DNA from: Actinocorallia sp. API 0066 | Lineage (GTDB): Bacteria > Actinomycetota > Actinomycetes > Streptosporangiales > Streptosporangiaceae | DNA length: 64,000 nucleotides | Reading direction: 5' to 3' | Assembly (NCBI RefSeq): GCF_020991275.1 | Contig: NZ_JAJLQY010000005.1 | Coordinates: forward strand, 248,001-312,000 | Shown: positions 3,592-20,282 of the stretch, piece by piece | Layout: each line of letters begins with the position of its first letter | How positions within the stretch are numbered: the stretch's first letter is position 1 | Notes under the pieces: generated by a model | The model's input: the letters and a program-made list of their open reading frames with translations, nothing else | What the model was told of the DNA's origin: nothing | The model's database searches: none | Translations under genes and position numbers: made by a program

Positions 3592-3732
3592 CCCGACCCC
3601 TCCCACGAGACACCACGCACTCCCCCAATCCTCCCAGCTCCCCCACCCCCTCCCGCCCTCCGAATCGCCACCACCCCCAGCCTTTGATACAGTTACGTCC
3701 GCCGCCGCGCCCCGCAGGCGCGGCCCACACCA

Positions 3733-3889: not shown

Positions 3890-3955
3890 TGGGGTCGATG
3901 ATCAGCGGCGGTACGTCACCGGTTACCGGCGTCTAACCAGTCCCGTTGCGACGAT

Positions 3956-4201: not shown

Positions 4202-4214
4202 AGGAGGCGAAGGC

Positions 4215-4245
4215 ACGGCGGAGCCCCTGCCAGGGGCTCCGCCGT
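4215..4245 (+). terminator. strong stem-loop after the HTH-only gene
   Basis: Perfect 14-bp stem (ACGGCGGAGCCCCT at 4215-4228, complement at 4232-4245) with a 3-nt loop, 14 nt after the stop at 4201. There is no T-run. Confidence 0.75.
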
Positions 4246-4547
4246 CGCGGCTCAGGTTGTCCGGAGCGCTACAGCCGCGCCTCAGGCAACGATGGCCGCG
4301 TGCGTCCGGCTGGTACCGATGACGGCGCAGGCCGGTCGGAGCGTCCGCCTGATCCAGGTGACACCCACTCGCATCTTTTCTGTTCCTCCCTCCGCGAGAA
4401 TCCGATCAAGATGGCGCGACACCGAACTCGCGACGGTTCGCGCCTCTCCAAGGGAAGCAGATTTCAGGACCGTTCGAACCGACATCACGCAGATGTCATA
4501 TCTACTGCCCAGTTTCTCATCGGGTGCTGAGGATCACTACTCGATGA
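4246..4547. other. gene-free stretch
   Basis: About 300 nt of lower GC between the terminator and the 3' end of the S9 peptidase gene. Short ORFs on both strands have no recognisable product and conflict with one another. Nothing else was seen. Confidence 0.5.
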
Positions 4548-6407: not shown

Positions 6408-7365
6408 TCAGGCGCTCCTTCATTCTGTTGATATGACGCCGAACCGTGGAAACGTTGACGTCGAGCCGACGGGCGATGGACCCATCCTGAAGCCCGGACC
6501 CCATCATCTGGAGCACCCGCCTCTCGACCTCGGACAGGCCCGTCAGATCCGCGCCCGCCCCTTCCCCAAAAGGCACGGCCTGGGACCAGAACATCTCGAA
6601 GTACTCACGCAACCCACCGACGATCGACGGGCACTCGACCAGCAACGCCCCACCCAACCCGGTCGGCGTCAACGGCAACAACGCCGTGCTCTCATCAGCC
6701 ATCTTGAGCTTCATCCCGACGTGCGGGACCACCCGCGCCTGTTCACCCGCCTCAACCGCTGCCCGAATATTCCGCACCCCCGCCGGATGGTGGAGAAACC
6801 CGCTCTCGTAGATGGACCGGCACCGCACGCCCCCGGCGAACACCGGCAACGGCGCTATCGCCGCGGCCTCGTCCATGGGCGTCTCCTGAAGCAGGTTCTC
6901 CAGGGTCATCCACTCACTCTTGGCCACATTGATCATCGAAATCGAAAGCTCGGTGATCTCCTCCCGATCAGTCACCACCCGAACGAGACCACCGACGATC
7001 CCCGCCCCCGCGCCGATCGTCCGCGCCGCCTCCGCCAACCGCTCATGCCCCGTCATCAACGCCCGCTGGCTCGCCAACAAACGCCGCTGCAACTCCACCA
7101 AAGCCGTGTGCAACACCAGATGCGGCGCCACCGGAACCAACCGATCCGAATGCGACCACAAATGCACCATCCCCCGATCCAACAACGCCCTGACCACACC
7201 CGCCCCCAACTCCCGCTCCGCCTCACCCACCACAGGCTCATCACACGCCACCAACACGCAATAAGCCTCCAACAGATCATCCGCCACCACACCCGCGAGA
7301 ACACCCCTCGCCTCAGAAACACCCCACCGAGCCACATCACCGAGCGTAACCACAACCCACGGCAC
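6352..7365 (-). CDS. LuxR-family transcriptional regulator with TrmB-like N-terminal region
   Basis: 337 residues. The C-terminal LuxR HTH (about 270-337) reads LTGLSEVERRVLQMMGSGL then DGSIARRLDVNVSTVRRHI. The N-terminal part (about 10-95) looks like the winged-helix/TrmB region of actinobacterial regulators of the form ...LLEAYCVLVACDEPVVGEAERELG.... The centre resembles a ligand or phospholipase-D-like region (DREEITELSISMINVAKSEWM). The start is drawn at GTG 7365; several later in-frame GTGs exist and no ribosome site decides. It overlaps the S9 peptidase gene and probably regulates it. Confidence 0.82.
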   Translation of the reverse strand: MPWVVVTLGDVARWGVSEARGVLAGVVADDLLEAYCVLVACDEPVVGEAERELGAGVVRALLDRGMVHLWSHSDRLVPVAPHLVLHTALVELQRRLLASQRALMTGHERLAEAARTIGAGAGIVGGLVRVVTDREEITELSISMINVAKSEWMTLENLLQETPMDEAAAIAPLPVFAGGVRCRSIYESGFLHHPAGVRNIRAAVEAGEQARVVPHVGMKLKMADESTALLPLTPTGLGGALLVECPSIVGGLREYFEMFWSQAVPFGEGAGADLTGLSEVERRVLQMMGSGLQDGSIARRLDVNVSTVRRHINRMKERLNVESRFAMGAAAVRRGWI

Positions 7366-7452
7366 TCAAGGTCCAGACGATAAATCGCCCCACTAAAAGA
7401 ACCAAGCCCCAAACACGAAGAATAACCCGGAGGTCACTCTCGTCGCGGGGAG

Positions 7453-7482
7453 GAGGGCGTCCACCAGGAAGTGGACGCCCTC
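7453..7482 (-). terminator. stem-loop downstream of the CxxC hypothetical gene
   Basis: Perfect 12-bp stem (GAGGGCGTCCAC at 7453-7464, complement at 7471-7482) with a 6-nt loop, 31 nt beyond the stop of the minus-strand gene ending at 7513 and upstream of the LuxR gene. It isolates the two transcription units. Confidence 0.7.
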
Positions 7483-7512
7483 GCTGCTCTTGCGGGGGCA
7501 GGGCGCCGGGTG

Positions 7513-8196
7513 TCATTCGGCGCGGGAGCGCGAGCGCACCGCAGCGCCCCGGGAACCGGTGGCGATCATGCTGCCGAGATCGACGACCTCGTAGTCCACC
7601 AGCTCCACATGAAGCTGGGCCGCACGCAGCAGGCGCGTACGCGGGTCGTCATGCGCGATGGTGGCGGCCGCACTGGCCCTCAGCCCAGCCCGCGTCGGCT
7701 GGTAGAGCATGCCCGAGATCGCGGCCGGAGCGACACGCCGGGAGCGTAGCACCACATACCCCTTACGCAGGTGCGGACACAACCGCCCCGACCGCTCCAC
7801 ACACCCCGGACACACCGGCGGATGAGCCGTCATCACCGGCGCGGGCCACGGCCCCTCCTCACTCTCGTACTCCTCCCGCGAAAGCATCCACAACGCGCTC
7901 CGCCCACAGGACGTCCCGCACACCTGACAGAGCAAATCCCGCATCGCCCGACGATGCCGCAGAGAATGCACCGACTTGAACTCCGGAACCCCCACCCCCG
8001 GACTGAACCCCATCCGCGTCCACAACACCCCCGCCCCATCCCGATCCCCCGCCCTCTCATCCACATAAGCGATCCGCCCACCCCGAACCACCACCGAGAC
8101 AGACGACACCTCCTCCGACGACCACGCCGTGATGTACGGCACCACCCCCCACCGCGCCAGATTCATCCCAGCCGCAGAATGCTCCTGCATAGACAT
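7513..8196 (-). CDS. hypothetical protein with two cysteine pairs
   Basis: 227 residues, not recognised. Features seen: a first Cys pair in LLCQVCGTSCGRSALW, a second in PPVCPGCVERSGRLCPHL (zinc-ribbon-like spacing), and a helical, Ala-rich C-terminal third. No signal peptide or membrane segment. ATG 8196 is preceded by AGAAAGG; a second ATG is at 8190. The ORF extends upstream, but that part is Arg/Ser-rich and has no ribosome site. It is co-directional with the small gene 8235-8504 and divergent from the XRE regulator at 8663; small-gene/XRE pairings of this layout are common in actinomycetes, so a shared promoter region and regulatory link are plausible. Confidence 0.65.
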   Translation of the reverse strand: MSMQEHSAAGMNLARWGVVPYITAWSSEEVSSVSVVVRGGRIAYVDERAGDRDGAGVLWTRMGFSPGVGVPEFKSVHSLRHRRAMRDLLCQVCGTSCGRSALWMLSREEYESEEGPWPAPVMTAHPPVCPGCVERSGRLCPHLRKGYVVLRSRRVAPAAISGMLYQPTRAGLRASAAATIAHDDPRTRLLRAAQLHVELVDYEVVDLGSMIATGSRGAAVRSRSRAE

Positions 8197-8234
8197 ACAC
8201 CTTTCTGGAATCAAGGAAGAGTTCCCGCGATAAC

Positions 8235-8504
8235 TCACGCGGGACGTGCGGGACCGTAGGCATTGAGGCACCGGAGGACCGTGACGACCTTCACGCCCAC
8301 GGCCAGAGCGAAAGCCTCGTCCGGGTCATGCGGGCAAATGGCAGGCCCAACCACTCGGCGAACACCCGCACGACGAACGCGCGGGCCGGGCCGTCGCTCG
8401 GCGAGCATGTCGGCCACGCCCAGGCCCACCGACAGGACCTCTTGGCCGGTGGCGTGCCAGGCATGCCGTAGGACTTCCCCGTCCACCGTCATCTCGCCAG
8501 CCAT
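8235..8504 (-). CDS. small hypothetical protein
   Basis: 89 residues, not recognised: MAGEMTVDGEVLRHAWHATG...FALAVGVKVVTVLRCLNAYGPARPA. ATG 8504 is chosen because AGGAGGG lies five bases upstream; the longer ORF start at 8573 lacks a site. It is mildly hydrophobic at the end but has no clear membrane helix. It is 38 nt upstream of the CxxC hypothetical gene on the same strand and probably cotranscribed with it. Confidence 0.6.
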   Translation of the reverse strand: MAGEMTVDGEVLRHAWHATGQEVLSVGLGVADMLAERRPGPRVRRAGVRRVVGPAICPHDPDEAFALAVGVKVVTVLRCLNAYGPARPA

Positions 8505-8662
8505 ACGACCCTCCTGAGCTCGCATCCCGGCTTCGGGATGCGGCGCTTCTTCCGTGCCTCTGCGGTCACTCAAAGCGAATACCTGCGCGACGGGCCTTGT
8601 CAGGGGGAGACTGGAGGAGGTCAGAGGAGAACCCCGCAGCTACCGTCGATGAGGCGCACCTG

Positions 8663-9988
8663 ATGAGCGAGGATGCGGTGAGGCCCGGCTGGGCGGACGA
8701 GATCCGGGAACGGCGTCTTCGTCTGTGCTGGTCGCAGAAGGAGATGGCTCGGCAGCTCGAATTGGCCGCTGACGCGAAGACACGGTCGACGCTGCCGAGC
8801 CGTGAGTCGATAGTGCGGGAGATCAGGTTTCATGAAAGCGGGACACACCGGCCCGGAGCTCTCTACGCGGAGCTCTACCGGCGTGTGTGGGCGCTTCAAG
8901 GTGAGCCGTCATCAAGCGAGACGGAGATACCCGGAGACCTGCTGCTCCTCGCCTGGACTGTAGGAAGGCTCGATCAGAGGATGGACCGACGAACTCTGCT
9001 GCAACTGGCCGCGAGTACCACGGCGGGATTCGCCGCGAGTCCCGCGGAACGCCTGATGAAGGCCCTCTCAGGAGCGCACCGACCCGACGACACGGTCATC
9101 TCACACCTGGAAGCGAGAACAAGGGGACTGCACCGGCTGGAAGAGCATCTTCCCTCGGGAACGCTGTTCCCAGCGCTGGTCACCCACCTCAACGAGGTGA
9201 GCGCCCTCATGGAAAGCAGAATTTCCGAACAGGACCGGACACGTCTCGCCGTCCTCGCCGGCGAAAGCGCCGTTCTGGCCGCGTGGTTCGCCTGGGAACT
9301 GGGCGACAAGCGCACCGCCGCCGCGCATTCCAGGCTGGCCCGAGCCACCGCGAAGCACGGTGACGATCCCGCGATCGGAGCCTGCATGACGGGCTACCAC
9401 TCATACATGACCGGTGGCGACACGGCGAAAAGCGTTCGGATGCTTCAGAACGCCGTCCGGGAGCTGGGCGACGCGGACCCGGCCACCCGCGCCTGGCTTC
9501 TCGCGCGCCTCGCCGAAGAAGCCGCCGCCCTCCACGCCGACGACATCGCCCTGAACGCGATCCACGAGGCACAGGACGTCTACAGCGAGGCCGACATCGG
9601 AGCCCGCCCGTGGACCTGCTTCCTCGACCCGGGACGGTTCGCCTCGATGCGACTCACCGTTCATTCGCGTCTTCGCCGCGAGGACGACGCGCTCGCGGCG
9701 ATGGACGAGATAGGTCTCCACCTCGGCTCCGACACCGAGGTGAAGAAGCTGTGCGTCGTCAAAGCGGAGATGGCGCTCGCCCAGTACCGGATAGGCGATG
9801 TCACCGAGGCCGTGAGCTCCGCGCGGTCGGCCTTCACCGCGACGGTGAAACTGAACGCTCCGCTCGGCTGGGAACGCCTGGACAACGTGGTGACGGAACT
9901 GCGACCCGCCCGTGCGCAGGTGGCCCGAGATTTCAGGGCGGAGTACGCCTCTACGCGTCCGGAGACGACACCGCCGTCTCTTCTGTGA
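8663..9988 (+). CDS. XRE-type regulator with TPR-like C-terminal region
   Basis: 441 residues. The N-terminal region (about 5-75) is an XRE-like DNA-binding domain (IRERRLRLCWSQKEMARQL ... IVREIRFHESGTHRPGALY). The segment MDRRTLLQLAASTTAGFAAS and the long helical remainder (about 150-430, e.g. ALMESRISEQDRTRLAVLAG, AAWFAWELGDKRTAAAHSRLA) match the TPR-like sensor region of actinobacterial XRE regulators. ATG 8663 follows GAGG at suitable distance; the ORF itself opens at a TTG (8597). Its last 38 nt overlap the 3' end of cutA on the other strand. It probably controls the divergent small genes or the radical SAM cluster downstream (inference). Confidence 0.82.
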   Translation: MSEDAVRPGWADEIRERRLRLCWSQKEMARQLELAADAKTRSTLPSRESIVREIRFHESGTHRPGALYAELYRRVWALQGEPSSSETEIPGDLLLLAWTVGRLDQRMDRRTLLQLAASTTAGFAASPAERLMKALSGAHRPDDTVISHLEARTRGLHRLEEHLPSGTLFPALVTHLNEVSALMESRISEQDRTRLAVLAGESAVLAAWFAWELGDKRTAAAHSRLARATAKHGDDPAIGACMTGYHSYMTGGDTAKSVRMLQNAVRELGDADPATRAWLLARLAEEAAALHADDIALNAIHEAQDVYSEADIGARPWTCFLDPGRFASMRLTVHSRLRREDDALAAMDEIGLHLGSDTEVKKLCVVKAEMALAQYRIGDVTEAVSSARSAFTATVKLNAPLGWERLDNVVTELRPARAQVARDFRAEYASTRPETTPPSLL

Positions 9989-10286
9989 TCCAGTTCAGGT
10001 AGTCGGCCAGGCCCCCTTCGATGGGGACGGCGACGATCTCCGGAGTGTCGTAGGAGTGCGCGGACCGGACCACTTCGACGAGGTCGTCCAACCGTTCCTT
10101 GGTCGTCTTCATCAGGATGAGGAATTCCTCGTCGCGCTGGATCTCCCCCTGCCACCAGTAGGTGGAGGAGATCGGACCGCTGATCTGCGCGCATGCCGCC
10201 GTCCGGCTTTCGACAGCCGCGTCGATGATGCTCTGCGCTTCCTCACGGCTGCTCGCCGTCACATGAACCTCAAGATGCCGACTCAC
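9951..10286 (-). CDS. cutA: CutA1 divalent-ion tolerance protein
   Basis: 111 residues, the usual size for CutA1, a very stable trimeric protein of the PII-like fold linked to divalent-metal tolerance. Seen: EVHVTASSREEAQSIIDAAV, ACAQISGPISSTYWWQGEI (the conserved YWW-GEI core), EEFLILMKTT and SYDTPEIVAVPIEGG..YLNWI. Starts at GTG 10286. Its 3' end overlaps the convergent XRE gene by 38 nt. It is an ordinary housekeeping protein in an otherwise accessory region. Confidence 0.93.
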   Translation of the reverse strand: MSRHLEVHVTASSREEAQSIIDAAVESRTAACAQISGPISSTYWWQGEIQRDEEFLILMKTTKERLDDLVEVVRSAHSYDTPEIVAVPIEGGLADYLNWITEETAVSSPDA

Positions 10287-10410
10287 GCCCCAAGCCTACG
10301 CGTTCACGGACCACCTCCTCTCCTCTCCTCTTTCCTCCTCTGGGCGGACCCGTTCGTGGCGACGTTCACTTGCCGTGGCAATGTCCGCGTAGCTCGGAAC
10401 GGAGATCAGC

Positions 10411-11385
10411 ATGACGATGCTCGGTATGCCGGAAGTGCCCGCACGGAACGGGAGACTCGTGGACGGCGGGGTGGCGTTCACCGCGGGCCACCACTTCGCG
10501 CTCGATGGCGACGGGGACCCCAGGACGCTGGCCGCAAGCGCGAAGGCTCCGCTGTCGGTGATTCTCCAGGTGACGAAGCGGTGCGATTTCGACTGCACCT
10601 TCTGTAGCGAGACGGCGCACATGAAGGACCCGTCCCTGGACGAACTCGGCACGATGGCGGCGAACCTGGAAGGCGTTCACCGGGTGTTCCTGTCGGGCGG
10701 CGAACCGCTCCTACGCCGGGATCTGTTGGACGTCGTGGACGTCTTCGACGGGTTCATCATCGGTCTGCCGACGAACGCCACCCGGGGAATGGATCTGGCG
10801 CCGAAGCTGGCGGGAAAGATCGAGTTCGCGAACATCGGGTTCGACGGGCCACGCGAGATCTTCCGCCGGGTCCGCGGTGACTACGACAAGGTCCTCACGG
10901 GGGTGCGGGCATTCCATGAGGCCGGTATCCCGGTCTCTTTCTCGGCGGTCGTGCTGCGCTCTACCCTGCACGGCTTGCCTTACCTGGTGCAGATCGCCGA
11001 CGTACTGGGTGCGGGCAAGGTGAAGCTGATCCTTCCGCTCCGGAAGGGCAACGCGCTCAACCTGGCCGAACACGAGTTCATCACCGTGCCGGAGGCGACC
11101 GACCACTTCGACCGGCTGGCCGAGCTCCGCGTCACGCACGAATGGCGTCCCGCGATCCGGATGACGCCGTGGACGGCCGAGACCGAGGGCCACATGATCG
11201 TCATCGAGCCGAACGGGAACGCGAACGCCTGGCCCGTCTACGACCAGCCCGACTTGTTCCTACGGCTCGGCAACGTCCGCGAGGAGCCCATGACCGAGCT
11301 GTGGAAGCGGTACCCCTACCAGGAAAACCACTTCGCCAAGCACCTCGGGACCAGCATCCTCACCCGCGACCGAGCGGCGGCCTAA
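10411..11385 (+). CDS. radical SAM enzyme
   Basis: 324 residues. The radical SAM cluster-binding motif CDFDCTFC (CxxxCxxC) lies at about residue 56, followed by the SAM-binding strand VFLSGGEPLLRRDLL (GGEP). Further TIM-barrel elements are ANIGFDGPREIFRRVRG and VSFSAVVLRSTL. The C-terminal part (about 240-324) has no Cys-rich SPASM domain. By barrel motifs it belongs to the MoaA/PqqE-type superfamily; the substrate cannot be read. ATG 10411 has GGAG at good spacing. The stop TAA shares a base with the next ATG (11385), so the two are translationally coupled. First gene of a same-strand cluster with nuclease-like, kinase-like and NUDIX genes, suggesting nucleotide or RNA chemistry (inference). 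Confidence 0.88.
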   Translation: MTMLGMPEVPARNGRLVDGGVAFTAGHHFALDGDGDPRTLAASAKAPLSVILQVTKRCDFDCTFCSETAHMKDPSLDELGTMAANLEGVHRVFLSGGEPLLRRDLLDVVDVFDGFIIGLPTNATRGMDLAPKLAGKIEFANIGFDGPREIFRRVRGDYDKVLTGVRAFHEAGIPVSFSAVVLRSTLHGLPYLVQIADVLGAGKVKLILPLRKGNALNLAEHEFITVPEATDHFDRLAELRVTHEWRPAIRMTPWTAETEGHMIVIEPNGNANAWPVYDQPDLFLRLGNVREEPMTELWKRYPYQENHFAKHLGTSILTRDRAAA

Positions 11386-12215
11386 TGACGACCTACACGA
11401 ACATGCTCTGGCCCGACGACCCGTACGGCACCGGCCAACTCTGGCGCAAGGAACCCCGGCTCGCGGCCAGCTTCGCGGCGCTGTTCGTCGACGACGGCGA
11501 GCGCACTCTTCCCGTGGCGTCAGCGGTCGTGTACCTGCCGACGCACCGGACCCGGCCCGTGGACCCCACGGCCGGGCTGCGGTTCGGCTTCCGGGCGGTG
11601 TCGGCCGTCACCGAGGCCGACCGGTCCGCGTTGGTGCGCCTGTTCGAGCTGGACGTCGCGCGGGCGCGCCGCCTGGCCCACGTGGTGCTCGGCTTCCAGC
11701 TCACCGACACGCTGCACGTCATCGCCGATCTCGCGCCCGACGAGAACGCCAACCGCGGGACCCGGGCACTCGCTCGGGTCTGGAACGGGGGAAAGCCCGA
11801 CCCGAACATGGCGCAGATATGCGACGTCGCCGACAGGTGGCCGCGCCTGGACCTCGCCCAGATCATCGAGTCGAGCGGAATCGATCCCCGCACCGTCCAG
11901 CGCGCGTTGGAACCCCAATGCACGCTCGACGGGCTGGTCGCCTCACTCCAAGCGCCGCTGATGCCTGGCCTGGCGGTGGCGGGCGACTCGAACGACGCGG
12001 CCCTCGCCCACCAAGTCGGTGAGTGGGCCGCCGCCTGCGCGACCGACACCGCGCTCGTCACCGGCCTGGCGGGCCTTCGCCAGCGGGACGAGTACGCGTG
12101 GGACGGCATGATGAACGTCGGGCAGGCAATGGCCGACAACCTCGGCGACTGCTTCCCCACCCAGGCATTCGGGGCCTCCTTCAGCACACCACACGAGGCC
12201 CACGCCACCGTTTGA
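11385..12215 (+). CDS. hypothetical protein, possible degenerate RNase H-fold partner of the radical SAM enzyme
   Basis: 276 residues, no confident family. Start ATG overlaps the radical SAM stop by one base. VVLGFQLTDTLHVI, RLDLAQIIESSG and ACATDTALVTGLAGL line up in order with segments of the neighbouring protein at 12312-13067 (LIVGHQVSSDLAVL, RLVDVCAELRLDV, NLRHSLSAAYTAL), so it may be a diverged paralogue whose catalytic acidic residues are not conserved. No signal peptide or membrane helix. The similarity was judged by eye; a coupled accessory or substrate-binding subunit of the radical SAM enzyme is equally possible. Confidence 0.7.
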   Translation: MTTYTNMLWPDDPYGTGQLWRKEPRLAASFAALFVDDGERTLPVASAVVYLPTHRTRPVDPTAGLRFGFRAVSAVTEADRSALVRLFELDVARARRLAHVVLGFQLTDTLHVIADLAPDENANRGTRALARVWNGGKPDPNMAQICDVADRWPRLDLAQIIESSGIDPRTVQRALEPQCTLDGLVASLQAPLMPGLAVAGDSNDAALAHQVGEWAAACATDTALVTGLAGLRQRDEYAWDGMMNVGQAMADNLGDCFPTQAFGASFSTPHEAHATV

Positions 12216-12236
12216 GAGTTCGAAGAAGAGACAGCT

Positions 12237-12278
12237 CCTGTGCGCCGTGCGAGGAGCGCGGCCTAGCCGGCGCACAGG
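12237..12278 (+). terminator. stem-loop between the second and third genes of the radical SAM cluster
   Basis: Perfect 11-bp inverted repeat (12237-12247 with 12268-12278; arm CCTGTGCGCCG) around a 20-nt loop, 21 nt after the stop at 12215. A TTGACA follows at 12283-12288 with no convincing -10, so this may be a terminator or attenuator separating the cluster into two units rather than a full promoter region. Confidence 0.45.
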
Positions 12279-12311
12279 TCTCTTGACAAACCCGAACCAA
12301 CCGGGGAAACG

Positions 12312-13067
12312 ATGATCATCAAGAGCAGCGTCGGTGGCTTCACCCAGGCGCCCGCCCGTAAGGACGGTCACCTCCTGGTCGCCTCTCTCGACGTCGAGTG
12401 GACGAAGAACTACCGGATCAAGAACGGAAACGTGCCTTTCTGCTGGTCCGTCACCTGGCTTTCCGTCCCCGTGTCCGAGGCCGCAGCCGCTCCTACAGAG
12501 TTCAGCTACACCAGCGTCTACGTCGAGAACGCGCAGGAGACCCAGGACCTCATCGACACCGCCGACGCCGGAATCGCCGCCTTCGCCGAGCACGCCGACC
12601 TGATCGTCGGCCACCAGGTCTCCAGCGACCTCGCCGTCCTGCGCAACGCCAGCACCCGCCCCCTCACCGCCACCGAGGCCCTACGCGAACGCTGGCACCA
12701 GCGCCGCACCGAGACGACACCCCGCGTCATCGACTCCCGCTACGACACCGGCCACGTCCTCACCGGCACAAGCCGCCGCCTCGTCGACGTCTGCGCCGAA
12801 CTCCGCCTCGACGTCACCCAGCCCGAACTCCGCCGCAAATCCATGACCGCCCTACACCGCGACTGGCTGAACGACGCCGACACCGAAGCCCGCGAACGCA
12901 TCACCGTCCTCAACCTCCGCCACAGCCTCTCCGCCGCCTACACCGCCCTCCACGCCACCGGCCGCACCACCTGGCACAACACCCTGAACGTCAACACCGT
13001 CCTCCACACCCAACTCGCCGGCTCCCTCGCCTGGCTCGACACCCCCACCTTCCGCGACCTCCTGTGA
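12312..13067 (+). CDS. DEDD-type 3'-5' exonuclease-like (RNase H-fold) protein
   Basis: 251 residues. Exo I-like motif LLVASLDVEW (DxE) at about 22-31; Exo II-like LIVGHQVSSDLAVL (GHxxxxD) at about 97-110; a third segment, TVLNLRHSLSAAYTAL at about 197-212, resembles Exo III but has Ala where the usual Asp would sit, so activity is uncertain. ATG 12312 with GGGGA just upstream. Six nt separate it from the kinase-like gene. Probable role: nucleic-acid or nucleotide processing with its neighbours (inference). Confidence 0.68.
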   Translation: MIIKSSVGGFTQAPARKDGHLLVASLDVEWTKNYRIKNGNVPFCWSVTWLSVPVSEAAAAPTEFSYTSVYVENAQETQDLIDTADAGIAAFAEHADLIVGHQVSSDLAVLRNASTRPLTATEALRERWHQRRTETTPRVIDSRYDTGHVLTGTSRRLVDVCAELRLDVTQPELRRKSMTALHRDWLNDADTEARERITVLNLRHSLSAAYTALHATGRTTWHNTLNVNTVLHTQLAGSLAWLDTPTFRDLL

Positions 13068-13073
13068 GGCCCT

Positions 13074-13679
13074 GTGCCCATCCGAGACTGCCGCGTCATC
13101 GCCGTCGAAGGCACCCACGCCAGCGGCAAGACCACTCTCGTCCACGCCCTCACCAGCCACTACCGCGAACAAGGCGTCCACGTCGCTTGCACCGGCGAGC
13201 CCGCCCGCTTCAGCCCCTTCATGGAAGAGATCGTCCTGCACGGCAAGGGCACCTTCGACCTCGTCGCCGAACTCGACGCCTTCGGCGCCCACCTCACCAC
13301 CCAGCTCCGCGCCGCCCGCAACCAGACCCTCCTCATCACCGACAAGACACTCCTCAACGTCGCCGCCTACGCCCGCATGCTTCTACCGCCCAGCGACCAC
13401 CCCGTCATCGACGCCATGCTCCGCCTCTGCGCCTCCACCACCCACCTGTACGACGCCGTCCTCTACACCTCCGACACCTTCAGCCCCTGGCAGCCCGGCG
13501 ACCGCTTCCGCGACAAGGTCGCCGACCAACAAGCCGAACTCGACCTCACCCTACGCAGCGCCGCCGACGAGATCGACCTCCCCCTGACCCCCATCCCTCG
13601 CGGCCTGACCACCGCCGAGCGCGTCTCATGGGTTTCCGCGCGTCTGGCCCAGACGGGAGTCCAGCCCGCGCTAGCCTGA
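13074..13679 (+). CDS. P-loop kinase resembling thymidylate kinase
   Basis: 201 residues, the size of a nucleoside monophosphate kinase. Walker A VIAVEGTHASGKTTLVHAL at about 8-26; the opening VEGTHASGKTT and the later DKTLLNVAAYARML...DAVLYTSDTFSP and DRFRDKVADQQAELD are like the TMP-kinase group, though the usual DRY/DR motif is replaced (LITDKTLLN). GTG 13074 start. Substrate unknown. Eight nt precede the NUDIX gene. A kinase next to a radical SAM enzyme and a NUDIX hydrolase suggests a modified nucleotide is made or cleared (inference). Confidence 0.78.
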   Translation: MPIRDCRVIAVEGTHASGKTTLVHALTSHYREQGVHVACTGEPARFSPFMEEIVLHGKGTFDLVAELDAFGAHLTTQLRAARNQTLLITDKTLLNVAAYARMLLPPSDHPVIDAMLRLCASTTHLYDAVLYTSDTFSPWQPGDRFRDKVADQQAELDLTLRSAADEIDLPLTPIPRGLTTAERVSWVSARLAQTGVQPALA

Positions 13680-13686
13680 CGCGCCT

Positions 13687-14166
13687 ATGAGCCCCACCGC
13701 CCCGAACACCACCTACACCAGCATCGTCGACGCCCTGCTCATCCTCCTACGCGACGACCACGTCCTCCTCGCCAGACGCCAAGGCACCGGCTACGCCGAC
13801 GGCATGTGGAACCTCCCCTCCGGCAAACTCGAAGCCAACGAAACCATCACCCAAGCCGCCATCCGCGAAGCCCAAGAAGAAATCGGCGTCCACATCACCG
13901 AACCCGACCTCCGCTTCGCGCACCTCATCCACTACCGCAACCCCCACGGCCACGCCCGCATCGGCGTCTTCTTCCACGCCACCCACTGGACCGGCACCCC
14001 CCACAACGCCGAACCCCACAAATGCTCCGAGGTCACCTGGCAGCCCCTCCACAACCTGCCCTCCGACACCTACCCGTACACAGCCCAAGGACTCGCCGCT
14101 TTCACCCGCCAAACCCCCCTCAGCACCATCGGATGGGACTCCCCCCGACCCTTCCACGGCCCATAA
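13687..14166 (+). CDS. NUDIX hydrolase
   Basis: 159 residues. Complete NUDIX box at about 53-75: GKLEANETITQAAIREAQEE followed by IGV, with all catalytic Glu present (Gx5Ex7REUxEExGU). N-terminal strand ALLILLRDDHVLLARRQGTGYADGMWNLPSG is typical of 8-oxo-dGTPase-like/MutT-like enzymes. Hydrolyses a nucleoside diphosphate linked to some moiety X; the actual substrate is unknown. Last gene of the cluster; the IS element starts 90 nt downstream. Third-position C is extreme, as in the two genes before it. Confidence 0.9.
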   Translation: MSPTAPNTTYTSIVDALLILLRDDHVLLARRQGTGYADGMWNLPSGKLEANETITQAAIREAQEEIGVHITEPDLRFAHLIHYRNPHGHARIGVFFHATHWTGTPHNAEPHKCSEVTWQPLHNLPSDTYPYTAQGLAAFTRQTPLSTIGWDSPRPFHGP

Positions 14167-14255
14167 CCATTCATTTATCACCGCGGGCGCACCCGATCCC
14201 CCTTCCCGATCGAGCCTCACCCGCCCGACGGGGCTACTTTCATCCAGTCCGGAAC

Positions 14256-15184
14256 ACTGAGCCTTTTCCATCATGCGTGAGCTGAGGCTTCGCGGTTTTG
14301 GAGGACGCTGATGGCCTTGGCGAGGTGGCCGGCGCGGTGGGGGCAGCAGCGGAGTTTGGTCGGGATCTTCCAGCTCTTGAGCTGGGCGTTTGCTCGTTCA
14401 CCGGGGCTGCGGAGCTTGGCGTGGGAGCAGTTGGGCTGCTTCTGTGAGGCGGGCTTGTTCTTGCCCTTGTACGGGGTCAGGATCGCCGGGTGCGCGCCGT
14501 GGTAGCCCTTGTCGGCCAGGACGATCAGCCCACAGGCGGCGAGGGCGCGGATGATGCCCCAGTTCCGGGCGGCTTTCAGGTCGTGGATCGAGCCCGGCAC
14601 CGCGCCCGAGACCCACACGATCTGGCCGTCCGGACCAGCGATGACCTGCAGATTTACGCCGTGCTTCTTGTGTTTCCCGGAGTAGAACGGCCGGTCGGCT
14701 TTCACGCAGTCGATCGCGATGAGCGTGCCGTCCAGGATCAGATGCTCCACGCCGTCCTTCCGGGCTTTCGCGAGGGCCTGGCCGAGCTTGGGCGAGCGGG
14801 CCGACAGCCACGCCACCGCCTCGTTGACATACCGCCACGCGGTCGTCGTCCCGACCCCGAAACCCGCCCCGAGCTGCGCGAACGTCTCGCCCTTCTTCAA
14901 GTACGCGAGCGTCATCAGCGCCTGCTGCCCGGCCGTCAACACGCGGCCCTTGCTCCCCAGCTTCACCCGGTTCCGGCGCACCAGCCCGGTCAGGTAGTTC
15001 AGGGTCGAACGCGACAACGGCAGCGAAGAACGATAGAAAAGCACGCGAAGCCTCCGGTGGGGGTCGGGCGGAGGCGAGAGTCCACCCCTCCTACCAGCGG
15101 CTTTTTCACTTCCCGGCCGCGCCACACCACCCGCGATCATGCTGTGATCATCAGCCTCGAACAGGCTGATGGAAAAGGCTCAGT
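14256..15184 (-). mobile_element. IS5-type insertion sequence, intact, 929 bp
   Basis: Perfect 18-bp terminal inverted repeats (ACTGAGCCTTTTCCATCA at 14256-14273 and its complement at 15167-15184), flanked by a 4-bp direct repeat GAAC (14252-14255 and 15185-15188) that reads as the target duplication. The single transposase gene fills it; its stop codon is inside the left repeat. The perfect ends suggest recent insertion between the NUDIX gene and qatD, interrupting no recognisable gene. Confidence 0.9.
14271..15044 (-). CDS. IS5-family DDE transposase
   Basis: 257 residues from GTG 15044 (VLFYRSSLPLS), one frame. N-terminal HTH region includes KGRVLTAGQQALMTLAYLKKGETFAQLGAGFGVGTTTAWRYV (first part KGRVLTAGQQALMTLAYL, second GVGTTTAWRYVNEAV). 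The DDE catalytic core has HLILDGTLIAID (first Asp), IVLADKGYHGA (second Asp) and ERANAQLKSWKI (Glu). Matches the DDE_Tnp_4 group. The longer ORF start (15140) reaches outward with Arg-rich sequence, so GTG 15044 is preferred. It appears intact. Confidence 0.88.
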   Translation of the reverse strand: MLFYRSSLPLSRSTLNYLTGLVRRNRVKLGSKGRVLTAGQQALMTLAYLKKGETFAQLGAGFGVGTTTAWRYVNEAVAWLSARSPKLGQALAKARKDGVEHLILDGTLIAIDCVKADRPFYSGKHKKHGVNLQVIAGPDGQIVWVSGAVPGSIHDLKAARNWGIIRALAACGLIVLADKGYHGAHPAILTPYKGKNKPASQKQPNCSHAKLRSPGERANAQLKSWKIPTKLRCCPHRAGHLAKAISVLQNREASAHA

Positions 15185-15306
15185 GAACCGTCGTATCCCA
15201 CAAGAACCACCGACTGAAGTTCATCGCGCTCATCAGGCGTCAGCACCATGCACGAATCATCCCACACCTGCATCCGGCAAGAGTTAAGAACATTCAATTA
15301 CAGACA

Positions 15307-16065
15307 CTAGAAGCTGCTGAGAATTTCGCGGAGGGTTGACGGAAGCCGCGAGGTGACGCTGGCGCGGTTTGCCAGTGTGGCGAGGTTTCGGTACCACAAC
15401 TCGCGGATAGCAGACGATGGCTGGTTCAGGAGTTCGGACATACGTTGTTCGAGGAAAGCGATGTCCCCTGGTATTCGGGCACGTGTGGTGCGACGGCTGC
15501 TCGGAAAGTCGGTCTCGGGCAGCAGGCGGTCGCGTGGGATCCGTGCGAGTCGTTCGTCGGTCATGGCTGCGTTGACGGAGAAGTAGCAGCCCATGGCGGT
15601 GGCACGTTCGATGTCGTCGCGGGTACCGTTGAACCAGTGCAGTATTGCGCCGGTCTGTGGTCGGCGTATGAGTGCATCGAGTAGTTCGCTGGTGCGGCCG
15701 GTGCTGTGCAGGGACAATAGGAGCGGTTGCTCGGAGCAGATCTCAAGGATGATATCGAGTGCGGCCAGTTGCGGTGCCAGCGCGGTCTTGCGATCAAGGC
15801 CGATCTCGCCAATGATTGCGTGCTGGCCGACGGCGCGTCGGACGCTGGCTTCGGTGACGGCTGCTACCGCGGAGGCGACGCCTGGGTGGGCGCCGTAGCC
15901 CCAAAGGATCGTGGCGTCGCTGCGGCGCACGGTTGCACTGGCCTCCGCAGGACTGCGGGTCATCGCAAAGACGATGGCGCCGTTCAGCGCCCTGACCTGG
16001 GGAGCGGTGACGTCGGGTGCAATATGGGCATGGCAGTCCAGTGGAGGTAGGTCAGATAGTGACAC
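15307..16065 (-). CDS. qatD: QatD, TatD-like metal-dependent hydrolase of the Qat defence system
   Basis: 252 residues from GTG 16065, chosen because it begins just before the first TatD motif and overlaps qatC by 14 nt. TatD/amidohydrolase metal motifs in order: LDCHAHIAP, WGYGAHPG, IIGEIGLD, LLLSLHSTGR, AILHWFNG and LLPETDFPS. TatD proteins are DNases. In QatABCD, TatD-like QatD is one of four proteins required for phage resistance. Last gene of the operon; 119 gene-free nt separate it from the IS element. Confidence 0.9.
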   Translation of the reverse strand: MSLSDLPPLDCHAHIAPDVTAPQVRALNGAIVFAMTRSPAEASATVRRSDATILWGYGAHPGVASAVAAVTEASVRRAVGQHAIIGEIGLDRKTALAPQLAALDIILEICSEQPLLLSLHSTGRTSELLDALIRRPQTGAILHWFNGTRDDIERATAMGCYFSVNAAMTDERLARIPRDRLLPETDFPSSRRTTRARIPGDIAFLEQRMSELLNQPSSAIRELWYRNLATLANRASVTSRLPSTLREILSSF

Positions 16066-17323
16066 GAGCGAGCTCCTCCAGTCCTCGGTTGCAGATTGCG
16101 AGTACCGCGTCGAAATCAGTATGCGGTGGCCACAGGCCCGAAGCGATGACACGGTATTCGTCGAAGCCGACCTCAGTGGCGTAAGTCCATGCAGCAATAT
16201 CGTGGCGGCGTAGGTGCAAGAGTTCTTCGCGTTTCGGCCCAGCCAGCATGTTCGCCAAATATTCGGTCTGGTCGGTCAACTGGGCGCCAGCGAAGGCACC
16301 GCGGCGCACGAGGCAGGCGATGCACAGGCCGCAGTTTAGGTTAGGATTCCCGCCTCGCAGGCGGCCAGCATTTTGCTTGGCGCAGGACAGGGTGGTGGCC
16401 GCCAAGCGTAGATCGTCAGCTGAGCCGGGGTGCAATGCCGCAGCAACCAAGTCGCCTTTGGTCATGGTGGCGTACGGGTTGGTGATAGTCATCCGGTCCA
16501 ATGGCAGTGCGTCGAGTAGCAATTGGAACGTGTAAAAGGTCCAGGGATGAGTGGATCGGGTGGTAAGTGGACCGCCGCGCGAGGGCTCCAGAGGAGGGTT
16601 AATGCTGGTGAATCCGTTCTCCGGGACCAGAATGCGAGTTGCGCGATGGCCGGATGCCAGGACCGTGGCCATAGCCATGAACAGCAGGGAGCGTGTGCGT
16701 GGCGTCGATTCACGGCGTTTGGTGACTGGCCTGAACGCGTACCGAAGATAGGTGGTGGCCGGTTGCCGCTGCTGCAGCGCCGTCTTGATGGTGTCCTGCG
16801 CTCTTAGCACAGCGGTGGAACTGTCGCGATGCCCCAGAAAGATGGTGGTGGCTGCTTTACCGAGGTGTAGGAGGGCGCCGCACAGGGAGTCGAGCCCGCC
16901 AGAGAGCAGACTGACAGTATCGGCTGGTGTGGCAGGGACATCGAGCCGACCGTGCTCAGGAATCGGCCGTGTGGGGACGATGTCGATATGCCATGTGTCA
17001 CCGGACAGCCAGTGTAGCAAGTCCGCAAGCCGGTCCAAGATTTCTTGAGTCCAGACCTCTGGCTGCTCGATGTGGACAATGATGTGCAGGTCGCGGCGCA
17101 TTGCCAGCCGTGGCCGTGAGACGGTTCGGTCGGCCAGGTAGGCGGCAGCGACGATTCGCAAGAGATCCTTGGCCGTTGGCGCGGCCGGGCCGAGCTCGGT
17201 CATCGACCAGCTAATGTCGGTGTGTATCGCAGCCGTGCGGCCGGGCATCATGGGCCACGAGTAGATGGCTGCGTCGCTTTGAGCGCCTGATGAGCCGTCC
17301 GGTAGAAGTTCGAGGCGATTCAT
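16052..17323 (-). CDS. qatC: QatC, QueC-like ATP-pyrophosphatase of the Qat defence system
   Basis: 423 residues. PP-loop motif SGGLDS at 141-146, followed by LGKAATTIFLGHRDSS, and a C-terminal Cys cluster (NLNCGLCIACLVRRG, with an upstream Cys in LSCAKQN) that in QueC binds zinc. QueC makes preQ0, the 7-deazaguanine precursor; QatC is a defence-associated relative with a long N-terminal extension (here about 130 residues). Its ATG overlaps the qatB stop (ATGA). Confidence 0.92.
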   Translation of the reverse strand: MNRLELLPDGSSGAQSDAAIYSWPMMPGRTAAIHTDISWSMTELGPAAPTAKDLLRIVAAAYLADRTVSRPRLAMRRDLHIIVHIEQPEVWTQEILDRLADLLHWLSGDTWHIDIVPTRPIPEHGRLDVPATPADTVSLLSGGLDSLCGALLHLGKAATTIFLGHRDSSTAVLRAQDTIKTALQQRQPATTYLRYAFRPVTKRRESTPRTRSLLFMAMATVLASGHRATRILVPENGFTSINPPLEPSRGGPLTTRSTHPWTFYTFQLLLDALPLDRMTITNPYATMTKGDLVAAALHPGSADDLRLAATTLSCAKQNAGRLRGGNPNLNCGLCIACLVRRGAFAGAQLTDQTEYLANMLAGPKREELLHLRRHDIAAWTYATEVGFDEYRVIASGLWPPHTDFDAVLAICNRGLEELARVTI

Positions 17324-18108
17324 CCCCTACCTCGTATTCGGAAGACGGTGAACACCTTGTGCGCGAGCGTAGCCGCGGACGCGACGAAGGCTTGGGCAGT
17401 GAGTATTGCCTCCTGCGGTAGCTTCATCGCCCTGACGCTGGCACGCAGATATTTCTTCGCCTTCTCCTCGATTTCCTTCGCGCGCTGCGGTGTGATGGTG
17501 TCGCTGCGCCGTTGCGAGGTCAGTTCGACCAGTACCTGCTCGTAGGCAAGGTGTTGAAGGAAGAGTTCCATCTGCTGCCCCGCGGTCGGCAATTCCTTGG
17601 CTTTCTGGATCTCTACCATGGTGCGCAGCGTCGCGGCGCGCAGTGCTACGTCATCTGGGTGACTTGGCGCTCCGAGGAGGGTGTCGACGATGTATGCGCA
17701 CCTGGCCCTGGGCGTGGGCAGGCTGTCAAGATGATGCAAGTCCAGACCGAGATCGGCCAACGTCGCTCGGTTGCCCGCGCGCAGGGCAGAGGCTCCCGCG
17801 ACGGCAGCGGCGCCGCGAGCGGTCTGCCGGCCAAGGTTACGGGCACCGCCTCCCCCGGCGGAGCTGCTAGAACCCCCGCTGTCTCCTGGGCCGCGAGCCC
17901 GTTGCGGGCGCAGCGAAGCCAGCGGATACGACGAGGGTCCCGGCGTCGGTCCGGCTGTTTTTGCCAACGCCTGCATGAAGGCGTTGACAAATGTCTGCAC
18001 CTGCGCGTCTGACGGTCCTGGTCCGCCTGCGGTGGCGTTGCTGTACGCGTCGTGGGCGGTGTCCCAGGATTGGTTGCCGCTGCCGCCGTATGCGCCGGAG
18101 GTGCCCAC
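17320..18108 (-). CDS. qatB: QatB of the Qat defence system
   Basis: 262 residues from GTG 18108, sharing one base with the qatA stop. The N terminus is Gly/Ser-rich and low-complexity (MGTSGAYGGSGNQSWD; later GDSGGSSSSAGGGGAR). The C-terminal two thirds is predicted helical (MVEIQKAKELPTAGQQMELF, ITPQRAKEIEEKAKKYLRAS). QatB has no known catalytic domain; the call rests on this architecture and its position between qatA and qatC. Confidence 0.85.
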   Translation of the reverse strand: MGTSGAYGGSGNQSWDTAHDAYSNATAGGPGPSDAQVQTFVNAFMQALAKTAGPTPGPSSYPLASLRPQRARGPGDSGGSSSSAGGGGARNLGRQTARGAAAVAGASALRAGNRATLADLGLDLHHLDSLPTPRARCAYIVDTLLGAPSHPDDVALRAATLRTMVEIQKAKELPTAGQQMELFLQHLAYEQVLVELTSQRRSDTITPQRAKEIEEKAKKYLRASVRAMKLPQEAILTAQAFVASAATLAHKVFTVFRIRGRG

Positions 18109-19898
18109 TATCTCGGCGGCTCGGTCAGTTCGGCGCGCGCCGCTTCTACGACGTCGGGGTCCAGCCCTTCGGTACCGATGATCGCGCGCAGCACATCCGG
18201 GAGTACACCGAGGAGCACGACATGGTGAGGTTCCAGCCGCCTGAAGAAGGTCGGCTGGCTCAGTACCCGACTAGCCGTGTCAGCCAAGTCTGGATCCGCC
18301 TGGCTGACCGTGGACAGCGACCAAATCACCGGCTCTGGGTCTGCTAGTCGGCTCAGTTGGATACCCAGGCTCTGCACCACAACTTGTCGGTCGGCCGACT
18401 CCAGTTCCTTCAGCTCCTGCGCCGCCGCGTTCCGGGTTGCCTCGGAAGCGTCGGCGAGACCCTCGATGATCCGCATGAGAGCGCCGGTGACCGCGCCGCC
18501 GAAACGAACGTCGCTCAGCAGCGTTGCGGCGATGCTGAGGTACCGCTCGACCTGGGCTTCAAGTCCGGCAAGCGATGGATGACTTGCCGCCCATGCTTTG
18601 GTCTCTTCACGCACGTCCTGCGGTTGGTCACCGTCGTCGGAAGCCCAACGTTCCCAGTCAGCGATGAGCGCGGTGCGTTCCGCGGACGACTGTTGGCTCA
18701 GCAGGCGGAACTCCTCCAGGTACCGGATCTCCAGCAGGTAGAGCTTGAGTAGCACTTCGAGCTCTAGTTGGGCGCCGCTGGTGCGGGTGAGGTGCTCGCG
18801 GACGGCGAATGCGTTAAGGAAGCGCTTGATCGCTCGTGGGCTGCGCCACACGTCGGCGCCGAGGCCGGCTGCAATACGCGCCGCCATAACCAAGTGTTCG
18901 ACCCGTGGGCCGTCGGATTCGTTCTCACCGGCGGCAACGTATGGCGCCTTGCCCTGCAGGCGGCGCTCGTTTGCCGCGTTGACGACGTCCTGGAACGCCT
19001 GCGTGGTGAGATGTCCAGCGTTCTTACAAAGCAGGAGCGTGATGTAGGCTTCCGCTTGCTCCACTGACAAAACGGGCAGTGAGATCGGAAGCTGGATGAT
19101 TTTCTCCGTGTAGAGCTTGGCGAACCCACCCCGGGAGGCTCCCTCCAAGTGGACTCCGATCGCTTCTCGAATCAGGTCCTCGTCGGCAGCTAGCACGAAC
19201 GCCATTCGGCGCACTGACAGGAAGAGTTTGATCGCTTCGAGCGTCGCCATGATTGTCGGTGGGAGACAACGATCGAGGTCGTCGACAAGCACAACAACCT
19301 TCTCAATGCCGTCAACCTCGCCCATGAGCTGCTCAAACGCTAGCCGGAAGCCCGCCATGCCCTGGGAGCTAGCCGTGCCGGCGTCGGACTCCTCCTCCTT
19401 CGGCTGGGGAGTCAGTGCGTCGAGGAGCTCCGCGAAGTTCGGCGAGAGGGTTACGGCGCTTGACACAAGCACCCCTGCCACACGCCCCCAGGCAATGCGC
19501 CGTCGCAAATCGCCAAGACGGTTGACCAACTGCCGGCGCTTTGACGGCTCCATCTCCGCCGATGCGACGCGACTTTGCAGCTCATCGAGCACTTGGGCGA
19601 TCAGAGTGCCGCGAAGATCCTCGGCGTTCTCGAATTCCCATGGGTCAATCCGCACCACGACTACACTGCCTATACGGCCGAGCCGATTGGCGACGAGGTT
19701 CAAAGCGGTGGACTTCCCCCCGCCCCAAGCGCTGTGGATCCCCACCGTGACCGGGTCCAACCCGCCCGCGCTGACAACCCTGGCCACCACCTCGGCTACC
19801 GTGTCGAATCCCAACAGGTCATCAACCGACGGGTTGTCGTCGAACAGCGGCACAGCAAAGCCTGCCTGCGGCCCAGGGATAGTCACCGATAACTCCAT
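18108..19898 (-). CDS. qatA: QatA, KAP-family P-loop NTPase of the Qat defence system
   Basis: 596 residues from ATG 19898. Walker A in GIHSAWGGGKSTALNL (53-68), the KAP strand VVRIDPWEFEN (81-91), Walker B KVVVLVDDLDRCLPP (200-214), then KLFLSVRRMAFVLAADEDLI and SPRAIKRFLNAFAVR, all typical of KAP NTPases. No membrane segment is inserted between Walker A and B, so it is probably cytoplasmic. The ORF opens at 20132, but that stretch is unlike the family. ATG 19928 lies too close to the predicted -10. First gene of qatABCD; overlaps of 1, 4 and 14 nt show tight coupling. Confidence 0.92.
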   Translation of the reverse strand: MELSVTIPGPQAGFAVPLFDDNPSVDDLLGFDTVAEVVARVVSAGGLDPVTVGIHSAWGGGKSTALNLVANRLGRIGSVVVVRIDPWEFENAEDLRGTLIAQVLDELQSRVASAEMEPSKRRQLVNRLGDLRRRIAWGRVAGVLVSSAVTLSPNFAELLDALTPQPKEEESDAGTASSQGMAGFRLAFEQLMGEVDGIEKVVVLVDDLDRCLPPTIMATLEAIKLFLSVRRMAFVLAADEDLIREAIGVHLEGASRGGFAKLYTEKIIQLPISLPVLSVEQAEAYITLLLCKNAGHLTTQAFQDVVNAANERRLQGKAPYVAAGENESDGPRVEHLVMAARIAAGLGADVWRSPRAIKRFLNAFAVREHLTRTSGAQLELEVLLKLYLLEIRYLEEFRLLSQQSSAERTALIADWERWASDDGDQPQDVREETKAWAASHPSLAGLEAQVERYLSIAATLLSDVRFGGAVTGALMRIIEGLADASEATRNAAAQELKELESADRQVVVQSLGIQLSRLADPEPVIWSLSTVSQADPDLADTASRVLSQPTFFRRLEPHHVVLLGVLPDVLRAIIGTEGLDPDVVEAARAELTEPPR

Positions 19899-19931
19899 CG
19901 CGATCACTAAGAGCACCGACAAGAACATAAC

Positions 19932-19959
19932 AGTGTAGGGGGCGCGGTTACGACGTGAA
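19932..19959 (-). promoter_or_regulatory. candidate promoter of the qat operon
   Basis: On the minus strand TTCACG (19959-19954), 16 nt, then TACACT (19937-19932). A start about seven bases downstream would give a 5' leader of about 27 nt to the qatA ATG at 19898. No Shine-Dalgarno sequence is visible before that ATG. Confidence 0.4.
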
Positions 19960-20232
19960 GGCCGTCCTTCACAGCCAACGGGCAGCACCGGAGTGGGCCA
20001 CCCGGTATCCGTGCCGGGCACGGGCGGGCGTCCGGCTGCACCTAAGGCAGGACCATGATGAGGTGCGAGAGCGCCGAGAACCTCCTCAATAGACAGAAGA
20101 AGGCAGGGCCCACCATCACCCTTGGGCGGCATGATTCAGCGCGCACCAGCCGACCAGAACCAGCGCACGTCGGGGATCCGCGAGCGGTCGGGGTGCAGCC
20201 ATCTGGCTGGTTTCCGGTTGGGGATTCGAACC

Positions 20233-20279
20233 CGTGCGTACGGCGCCCGGCCCAGCGACAGTCGGGCACCGTATGCACG
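20233..20279. repeat. long inverted repeat beside the recombinase fossil
   Basis: 16-bp arms (20233-20248 and 20264-20279) with two G-T-type mismatches around a 15-nt loop. It sits directly beyond the recombinase stop (20283) and may be its terminator or an element-end structure. On the minus strand it is followed by a T-arm-like GGGTTCGAATCCCC. The rest of 19960-20282 contains no gene I can support. Confidence 0.55.
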
Positions 20280-20282
20280 CGA

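Follow-up and report, generated by a model that had tools for sequence, protein, structure and literature searches.

What is the function of five closely spaced genes at positions 10411 to 14166 of a 64,000-nucleotide stretch of the Actinocorallia sp. API 0066 genome (contig NZ_JAJLQY010000005.1, positions 248,001 to 312,000; hereafter the window)? They encode a radical S-adenosylmethionine (radical SAM) enzyme, a partner protein, an exonuclease-like protein, a thymidine monophosphate (TMP) kinase-like protein, and a NUDIX hydrolase, and we refer to them as the cassette. Here we report its gene set, gene order, co-occurrence, mobility, phage slot, and protein folds. We consider the chance somewhat better than even that the cassette is a compact, mobile biosynthesis-and-immunity cluster for a nucleotide antimetabolite, and intracellular anti-phage use is the chief rival. 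The antimetabolite reading is based on the co-occurrence of the genes at 26 loci, on their carriage by phage as a block, and on a phage slot that exchanges them with small-molecule-like cargo. It also draws on a published analogue, thmA-C, and on the nearness of AbmM and BlsE in a PDB profile search.

Gene content and recurrence of the cassette

All five open reading frames (ORFs) are on the plus strand in the window ORF list, and consecutive ORFs are separated by a 1-base overlap and then by 96, 6, and 7 bases. The radical SAM gene (10411 to 11385) encodes 324 amino acids with a PF04055 match (4e-15) and, as judged from an AlphaFold2 (AF2) model compared with the PDB, a viperin/SPASM-like C-terminal domain. 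Directly 3' of it is the gene for the core partner (11385 to 12215, 276 amino acids). The exonuclease-fold protein (12312 to 13067, 251 amino acids) is an optional member and resembles the 3'-5' exonuclease domain of family-B DNA polymerases. Neither of these two products matched a Pfam family, and the sole PADLOC match of the second was a weak one to DEDDh (0.005). The next gene (13074 to 13679, GTG start) encodes a P-loop nucleotide kinase of 201 amino acids, and the last (13687 to 14166) encodes a MutT-like NUDIX hydrolase of 159 amino acids (PF00293, 7e-20) whose NUDIX box is intact in the alignment. The kinase matched AAA_28 (5e-13) and the PHROG thymidylate kinase (2e-11). It scored below threshold with Pfam Thymidylate_kin (5e-5, 23.4 bits vs. 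a cut-off of 27) and fell well short of a canonical deoxythymidine monophosphate kinase (TIGR00041, 21.7 bits vs. a cut-off of 83.25). The initial annotation had described five same-strand, closely spaced genes and had named the radical SAM, TMP-kinase-like, and NUDIX families, and it was correct on both counts. PADLOC recognized no defence system of this composition among the five proteins. Its matches were the prokaryotic viperin model pVip (7e-9), the DEDDh model, weak P-loop matches, and the candidate model PDC-S07 (NUDIX, 4e-16).

The genes were found together at 26 distinct loci. The radical SAM and partner genes are present in all 26, the kinase gene in 24, the NUDIX gene in 24, and the exonuclease-like gene in 15. 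The loci comprise the window, seven named contigs, three family genomes, five viral contigs, Streptomyces phage Gilgamesh, and nine genomes of family f17. Two loci on contigs already counted (L016, same as L022; L021, same as L013), the short duplicates L001 and L005 to L012, and repeat copies of viral contigs (L098, L099, and L106 of L042; L101 and L104 of L038; L105 of L039; L107 of L041) were left out. The 24-row alignments of the radical SAM and partner proteins omit L019, in which the contig ends directly after the second cassette gene, and L037. Gene order is constant across loci, with the NUDIX gene inverted yet retained in L014 and L024, and the gap between the radical SAM and partner genes ranges from -8 to +14 bases. 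The same set recurs in unchanged order in other genera and in phages, which is more than chance would give. Scattered homologues had been set beforehand as the refutation test of the unit, and this refutation failed because the genes co-occur.

The cassette is an accessory, patchy element. Single-protein scans of the named genome contigs gave 8 loci with radical SAM identities of 56-79%. In family f1, radical SAM matches at E <= 1e-30 were present in 8 of 297 genomes, five at 66-100% identity and three at 34-36%. The full radical SAM gene was found in 9 of the 35 genomes of family f17, and fragments were found in G349 and G509. These truncated remnants (G349:C8:89636-89956, L068:7562-8170; G509:C1:1841758-1841925) show signs of decay. 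When 394 genomes of the class were drawn, 10 matched the exonuclease-like profile, and all 10 were among the 12 that matched the radical SAM profile; the remaining two were G068, which is of a sister type described below, and G349 with its truncated gene. Plasmid carriage was rejected, since none of 72,556 plasmid records matched the exonuclease-like protein (E <= 1e-3) or the radical SAM enzyme (E <= 1e-20).

The radical SAM enzyme and the exonuclease-like pair

Only the three cysteine columns of the CxxxCxxC motif are conserved in the radical SAM enzyme (24 of 24 rows; the next-best column reached 4 of 24). The auxiliary-cluster cysteines of a SPASM peptide maturase are therefore lacking, and the Pfam SPASM match (0.006) is below cut-off. 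The AF2 model (predicted local distance difference test, pLDDT, 79.5) gave its highest Z score with CTP- or UTP-bound viperins (Z 22.7, root-mean-square deviation (rmsd) 2.5-2.6 over 252-253 residues), tied with SuiB (Z 22.4, rmsd 3.2) and SkfB (Z 22.2, rmsd 3.6). When Foldseek matches were ordered by E-value, SkfB (6e-12) came before anSME and PqqE, and viperins appeared from 1.5e-9. The profile search of the PDB gave SkfB (3e-18), viperin-like proteins (from 2.5e-12), AbmM of albomycin (8wm2, 1.5e-9), MoaA (1.6e-7), and BlsE of blasticidin S (7vob, 5e-7), and the best NCBIfam match was moaA_archaeal (1e-16). AbmM and BlsE, both radical SAM enzymes from nucleoside antibiotic pathways, also resemble the model in fold (Z 15.4 and 19.0, respectively), although their identity to the enzyme is low (16-19%) and their own clusters are larger and make other products.

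Membership in the pVip family was rejected. With the cassette profile a genuine pVip of genome G068 scored 22.5 bits, below three ordinary radical SAM proteins of the own genome (L002, 45.1; L003, 34.5; L004, 28.4 bits). Because viperins tie at the top by fold and the pVip profile score is low, the enzyme appears viperin-like in fold but is not a member of the viperins, with peptide maturases equally near. The earlier statement that the enzyme does not look like viperin is thus valid for its sequence but, as the model suggests, not for its fold. A sister radical SAM subfamily (34-36% identity) has a TMP-kinase-like gene alongside in all three of its loci, which supports a nucleotide substrate. 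The sister sets (L025:9057-11072, minus strand; L026:7684-10161; L027:7790-9907) consist of three genes, for a TMP-kinase-like protein, a small middle protein, and the radical SAM enzyme. One of the two middle proteins scanned, that of L026, has a weak HhH-GPD match (0.0015, below cut-off).

The partner protein aligned with the exonuclease-like family over nearly the full length (hhalign probability 99, local E 6e-18), and hhalign controls with the kinase, NUDIX, and radical SAM proteins gave 0.1-0.2. D27, E29, H101, and D106 of the exonuclease-like protein are kept in 15 of 15 aligned rows. In the partner protein the Asp and Glu of the DxE columns are found in 0 of 24 rows, and the second-motif His and Asp are retained in most. 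By sequence comparison, the core partner and the exonuclease-like protein are paralogues, and the partner has lost the DxE motif. The initial annotation listed a coupled unknown protein and a DEDD-like protein; both genes are present, but the two products are paralogues and not unrelated. The loci of family f17 and L024 carry the DxE-less protein without the exonuclease-like paralogue, and thus the DxE-less protein is the core partner and the exonuclease-like protein is optional.

The AF2 model of the exonuclease-like protein (mean pLDDT 79.9) matched the exonuclease domain of DNA polymerase alpha with Z 14.8 and rmsd 3.4 over 186 residues. Foldseek also returned RNase T and TREX1, with a single match at E <= 1e-3, and no sequence relatives were found in the PDB up to E 5. 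The likeness to the 3'-5' exonuclease domain of family-B polymerases lies in the fold (Z up to 14.8) and in the retained DxE and further Asp. Unlike that domain, the cassette protein is a stand-alone protein of 251 amino acids, has no fourth Asp at the expected place, and is paired with a DxE-less paralogue. The fourth Asp has a defined position in the family-B and DEDDh motifs, and because it is not at that place the nuclease activity of the cassette protein is only putative. The exonuclease-like gene is dispensable (present in 15 of 26 loci), and therefore a role in immunity fits it better than a role in synthesis. For the same reason we do not favour the order proposed initially, in which release by a nuclease precedes radical modification.

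Phage carriage, the cargo slot and the genomic island

Streptomyces phage Gilgamesh carries the complete cassette as genes 39-43, two of which are labelled by the depositors as a kinase and a MutT-like protein. Gilgamesh is one phage, represented by two of 50,697 records, and it also encodes ParA- and ParB-like proteins, an FtsK-like translocase, and two tyrosine integrases. Five loci with the cassette were found in IMG/VR, three of them on contigs of 125-128 kb. The Streptomyces mashuensis copy (L017) is beside Gilgamesh-type portal genes, and phage and Streptomyces sequences interleave in the radical SAM tree.

We surveyed the site of the cassette with the Gilgamesh portal protein as query, independently of the cassette, and obtained 16 viral loci. 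The slot was taken as the region upstream of the gene-44 homologue and was at least partly in view in 13 of the 16; L085, L090, and L097, with the slot outside view, were left out of the count. Pfam and PADLOC searches covered a chosen part of the slot genes. The cassette occupies the slot in two of these 13 Gilgamesh-type contigs (L040 and L098), and the other 11 have other content. The slot of L094 (61-2686) encodes a B12-binding radical SAM protein, a TMP kinase (1e-26), and a NUDIX protein of the cassette subfamily (4e-40). The slot of L084 (1222-8966) encodes a NUDIX protein, a JmjC-like protein, a thymidylate-synthase-like enzyme, NDK, a radical SAM-like protein (CxxxCxxC; Pfam 0.013) without PDB relatives up to E 1, an RNase_T exonuclease (1e-17), an AAA_28 kinase (5e-11), and an aldo/keto reductase. 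L092 (2396-8187) shares this run from the synthase-like gene onward, and no homologue of the Pfam NUDIX of L084 was found in it.

The synthase-like enzyme of L084 is much closer to MilA (9e-76) than to thymidylate synthase (1e-10) or T4 dCMP hydroxymethylase (7e-5). MilA, the CMP 5-hydroxymethylase of mildiomycin, is its closest solved relative, and the ribose preference of MilA has been attributed to Ala176 and Lys133 (PMC5175136). In the alignment L084 retains both residues, and L092 has identical DSK and RAND stretches. Because MilA is nearest and the ribose-preference residues are kept, the L084-type cargo looks like nucleoside-antibiotic chemistry and not like phage DNA modification. MilA is not in the cassette itself, and its relevance is by slot association only. 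The L084/L092 set is probably a phage-borne nucleoside cluster in its own right.

Among the other slots, L089 and L091 are RiPP-like (ribosomally synthesized and post-translationally modified peptide), with Lant_dehydr_C, PCMT, and an ABC transporter in the former and an MvdD-type ATP-grasp protein with PCMT in the latter. L086 (2297-9020), L087, and L095 have near-identical genes for TauD, UDP-glucose dehydrogenase, a 461-amino-acid protein, and a glycosyltransferase. The slot cargo that could be identified thus appears mostly small-molecule-like. In L093 a gene for DNA polymerase III alpha (818-4447, minus strand) lies at the end of the contig, possibly a resistant copy of a target.

In the window the cassette is within a genomic island, as had been proposed. 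A 23-bp direct repeat is present at the 3' end of a tRNA-Leu gene (3803 to 3825, plus strand; putative attL), and its second copy was located by repeat match at 20342 to 20364 (plus strand; putative attR). Homology of the same-genus genome G001 to the window leaps from 3821 to 22214 (L114), and the repeats at tRNA-Leu together with this jump support the island. Homology of genome G002 also ends at 3821, with none further within the 19.5 kb examined (L115). Searches with the partner protein and with the radical SAM enzyme found no cassette in the other two genomes of the genus. The island (3803-20364) contains genes for an S9 peptidase, an HTH regulator, and an NsdA-family regulator, then cutA, the cassette, an IS5-type transposase gene (14271-15140), and Qat-like genes. 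QatC (6e-72) and QatD (4e-34) were identified by NCBIfam, both below the curated cut-offs, and QatA (1e-64) by PADLOC; the 262-amino-acid protein at the QatB position had no PADLOC match.

The XRE/TPR-like regulator noted initially upstream of the cassette across cutA belongs to the NsdA TPR family (8597 to 9988, plus strand; NF053720, 9e-42) and is the probable cassette regulator; cutA (9951-10286, minus strand) is between the two. An NsdA-type or related TPR regulator is encoded within 3.4 kb upstream of the radical SAM gene, in either orientation, in 9 of 18 non-viral and 0 of 6 viral loci. With 24 genes of this type counted over 7.0 Mb, chance would give about 0.2; this value is approximate, as the loci were scanned with a broader profile than the background was. 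About 2 kb upstream of the cassette, the product of 7513-8271 (minus strand) is a 32% homologue of Gilgamesh gene 38. In the phages gene 38 is directly upstream of the cassette, and its family may be a common one.

Proposed function and its alternatives

We infer the substrate, the product, the job of each protein, and the target, and with them every chemical step. The radical SAM enzyme and its coupled pseudo-exonuclease partner would alter a pyrimidine-type (deoxy)nucleotide or nucleoside, and the TMP-kinase-like enzyme would phosphorylate the precursor or product toward its active form. The NUDIX hydrolase would destroy the analogue triphosphate inside the producer, and the exonuclease-like protein, where present, may trim incorporated analogue off DNA 3' ends as proofreading domains do. 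The NsdA-type regulator would often control the cassette. As swappable cargo of islands and Streptomyces phages, the cassette may arm its host or lysogen against competitors. Nucleotide chemistry had been suggested for each protein at the outset; the cassette is a conserved unit in a mobile island, and such roles of the kinase and NUDIX proteins remain plausible. The tRNA role that was raised as equally possible found no support, with no test aimed at it.

The closest functional parallel is thmA-C of Photorhabdus, in which thmA (radical SAM), thmB (kinase), and thmC (triphosphatase) are together enough for E. coli to make 4'-thiothymidine, and thmC alone confers resistance (PMC12691670). Like the cassette, it is a minimal mobile set of a radical SAM enzyme, a nucleoside kinase, and a nucleotide triphosphatase, and it has no exporter. 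The three corresponding functions are present in 26, 24, and 24 of the 26 cassette loci, respectively. In contrast to the cassette, thmA-C is described by its authors from gamma-proteobacteria and without exonuclease-like proteins (PMC12691670).

Several observations weigh against an antimetabolite cluster. The likeness to ThmA-C rests on described gene functions, and the cassette contains no exporter or phosphatase gene. Among the 25 loci not cut by a contig end, one lacks the NUDIX gene (L022) and one the kinase gene (L015). The peptide maturase SkfB ranks first in both the PDB profile search and Foldseek, and thus a peptide substrate is possible. The top fold match of the exonuclease-like protein is the inactive domain of polymerase alpha, and the exonuclease-like protein has no Asp in the helix that should hold the fourth one (the aligned rows read RHSLS there, as judged from sequence and not from coordinates). 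No identity was assigned to the slot cargo of L088 and L096, two of the 13 contigs. PADLOC matched 4 of 20 slot proteins, with mad2 and mad3 in L089 and mad2 in L091, which could mean defence; we read these as probably shared methyltransferase and ABC domains. Finally, Qat adjoins the cassette in the window.

The alternative that survives best, though we consider it rather unlikely, is an anti-phage function in which a modified nucleotide is, as with viperins, made and kept in the cell and poisons phage replication, with the NUDIX and exonuclease proteins protecting the host; in prophages this would amount to superinfection exclusion. It agrees with the top rank of nucleotide-bound viperins in the fold comparison, the PADLOC pVip match, the position beside Qat in an att-flanked island, the patchy distribution (9 of 35 genomes in f17; 5 close copies in 297 genomes of f1), and carriage by temperate phages. 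PADLOC also lists pVips 'associated with kinases' as a class, and pVips appear to share with the cassette enzyme a similar radical SAM fold and the lack of an auxiliary cluster. However, a true pVip scores below ordinary radical SAM proteins, the Z scores of SuiB and SkfB are level with those of viperins, and the cassette adds to a pVip a NUDIX protein, an exonuclease-like pair, and a regulator. The remaining slot cargo is mostly small-molecule-like rather than named defence, its PADLOC matches being through methyltransferase and ABC-type domains. We therefore do not retain as the main explanation the conflict role that was argued from the adjacent Qat genes, because the phage neighbourhoods point to small-molecule synthesis instead.

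Four further explanations have a small probability each. Hypermodification of phage or island DNA, with the kinase and radical SAM enzyme building a modified base, is quite improbable. Thymidine-hypermodified phages are a precedent, and phage carriage, the combination of a radical SAM enzyme and nucleotide kinase with nucleic-acid-type proteins, and the weak HhH-GPD match of the sister subfamily are compatible with it. But neither a thymidylate synthase nor a hydroxymethylase is annotated in Gilgamesh or found in the cassette, the hydroxymethylase of the sibling cargo is of the MilA type with ribose-preference residues, and a 3'-5' exonuclease and a NUDIX protein are odd fits; the thymidine-type form was set aside. 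A RiPP-type radical SAM peptide maturase cluster, whose kinase and NUDIX proteins serve another purpose, is just as doubtful. SkfB and PqqE lead the PDB profile matches, SkfB leads in Foldseek, and RiPP-like sets use the same slot, but the enzyme has no auxiliary-cluster cysteines, no precursor gene was recognized between the tightly packed genes, and the kinase and NUDIX genes each accompany the radical SAM gene in 24 of 26 loci. With similarly little confidence, we considered that the pseudo-exonuclease might present a DNA 3' end to the radical SAM enzyme, which would alter the nucleotide while it is still part of the polymer, that the paralogue would free the modified deoxynucleoside monophosphate, which is what the TMP-kinase-like enzyme could load to the diphosphate, and that the NUDIX protein would be the antidote; phages would then carry the means to convert DNA into a toxic nucleotide. 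A role in nucleotide sanitation or DNA repair, by clearing damaged nucleotides, is the least probable of all. The MutT-like NUDIX protein, an exonuclease fold like those of proofreading domains and TREX1, and the precedent of spore photoproduct lyase as a radical SAM repair enzyme speak for it. Against it, the core member is the non-catalytic paralogue and the exonuclease is only optional, and the rare, patchy cassette swaps with biosynthetic cargo in phages.

Nucleoside antimetabolites are used as drugs, and to our knowledge few minimal clusters for them are known. The functional theme of a radical SAM enzyme, a kinase, and a resistance hydrolase is already published. We found no description of this gene set, its gene family, or the exonuclease/pseudo-exonuclease pair in the open-licence literature, a search whose reach excluded most subscription journals, and the pair beside a radical SAM enzyme is a new pairing. 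Of 2,112 prophage genomes of actinobacteria in a published survey, 0.6% were reported to contain small putative biosynthetic gene clusters, with none for known antiphage molecules (PMC10023795). Clusters of the cassette kind may be missed by standard detectors. The cassette is short enough to clone, includes a gene predicted to confer immunity, and is present in islands and phages. If the antimetabolite reading is true, the recurrence of a radical SAM enzyme, a nucleotide kinase, and a NUDIX protein from different parts in one slot would give a search rule for more such clusters, and temperate Streptomyces phages would carry exchangeable nucleotide-poison clusters as cargo.

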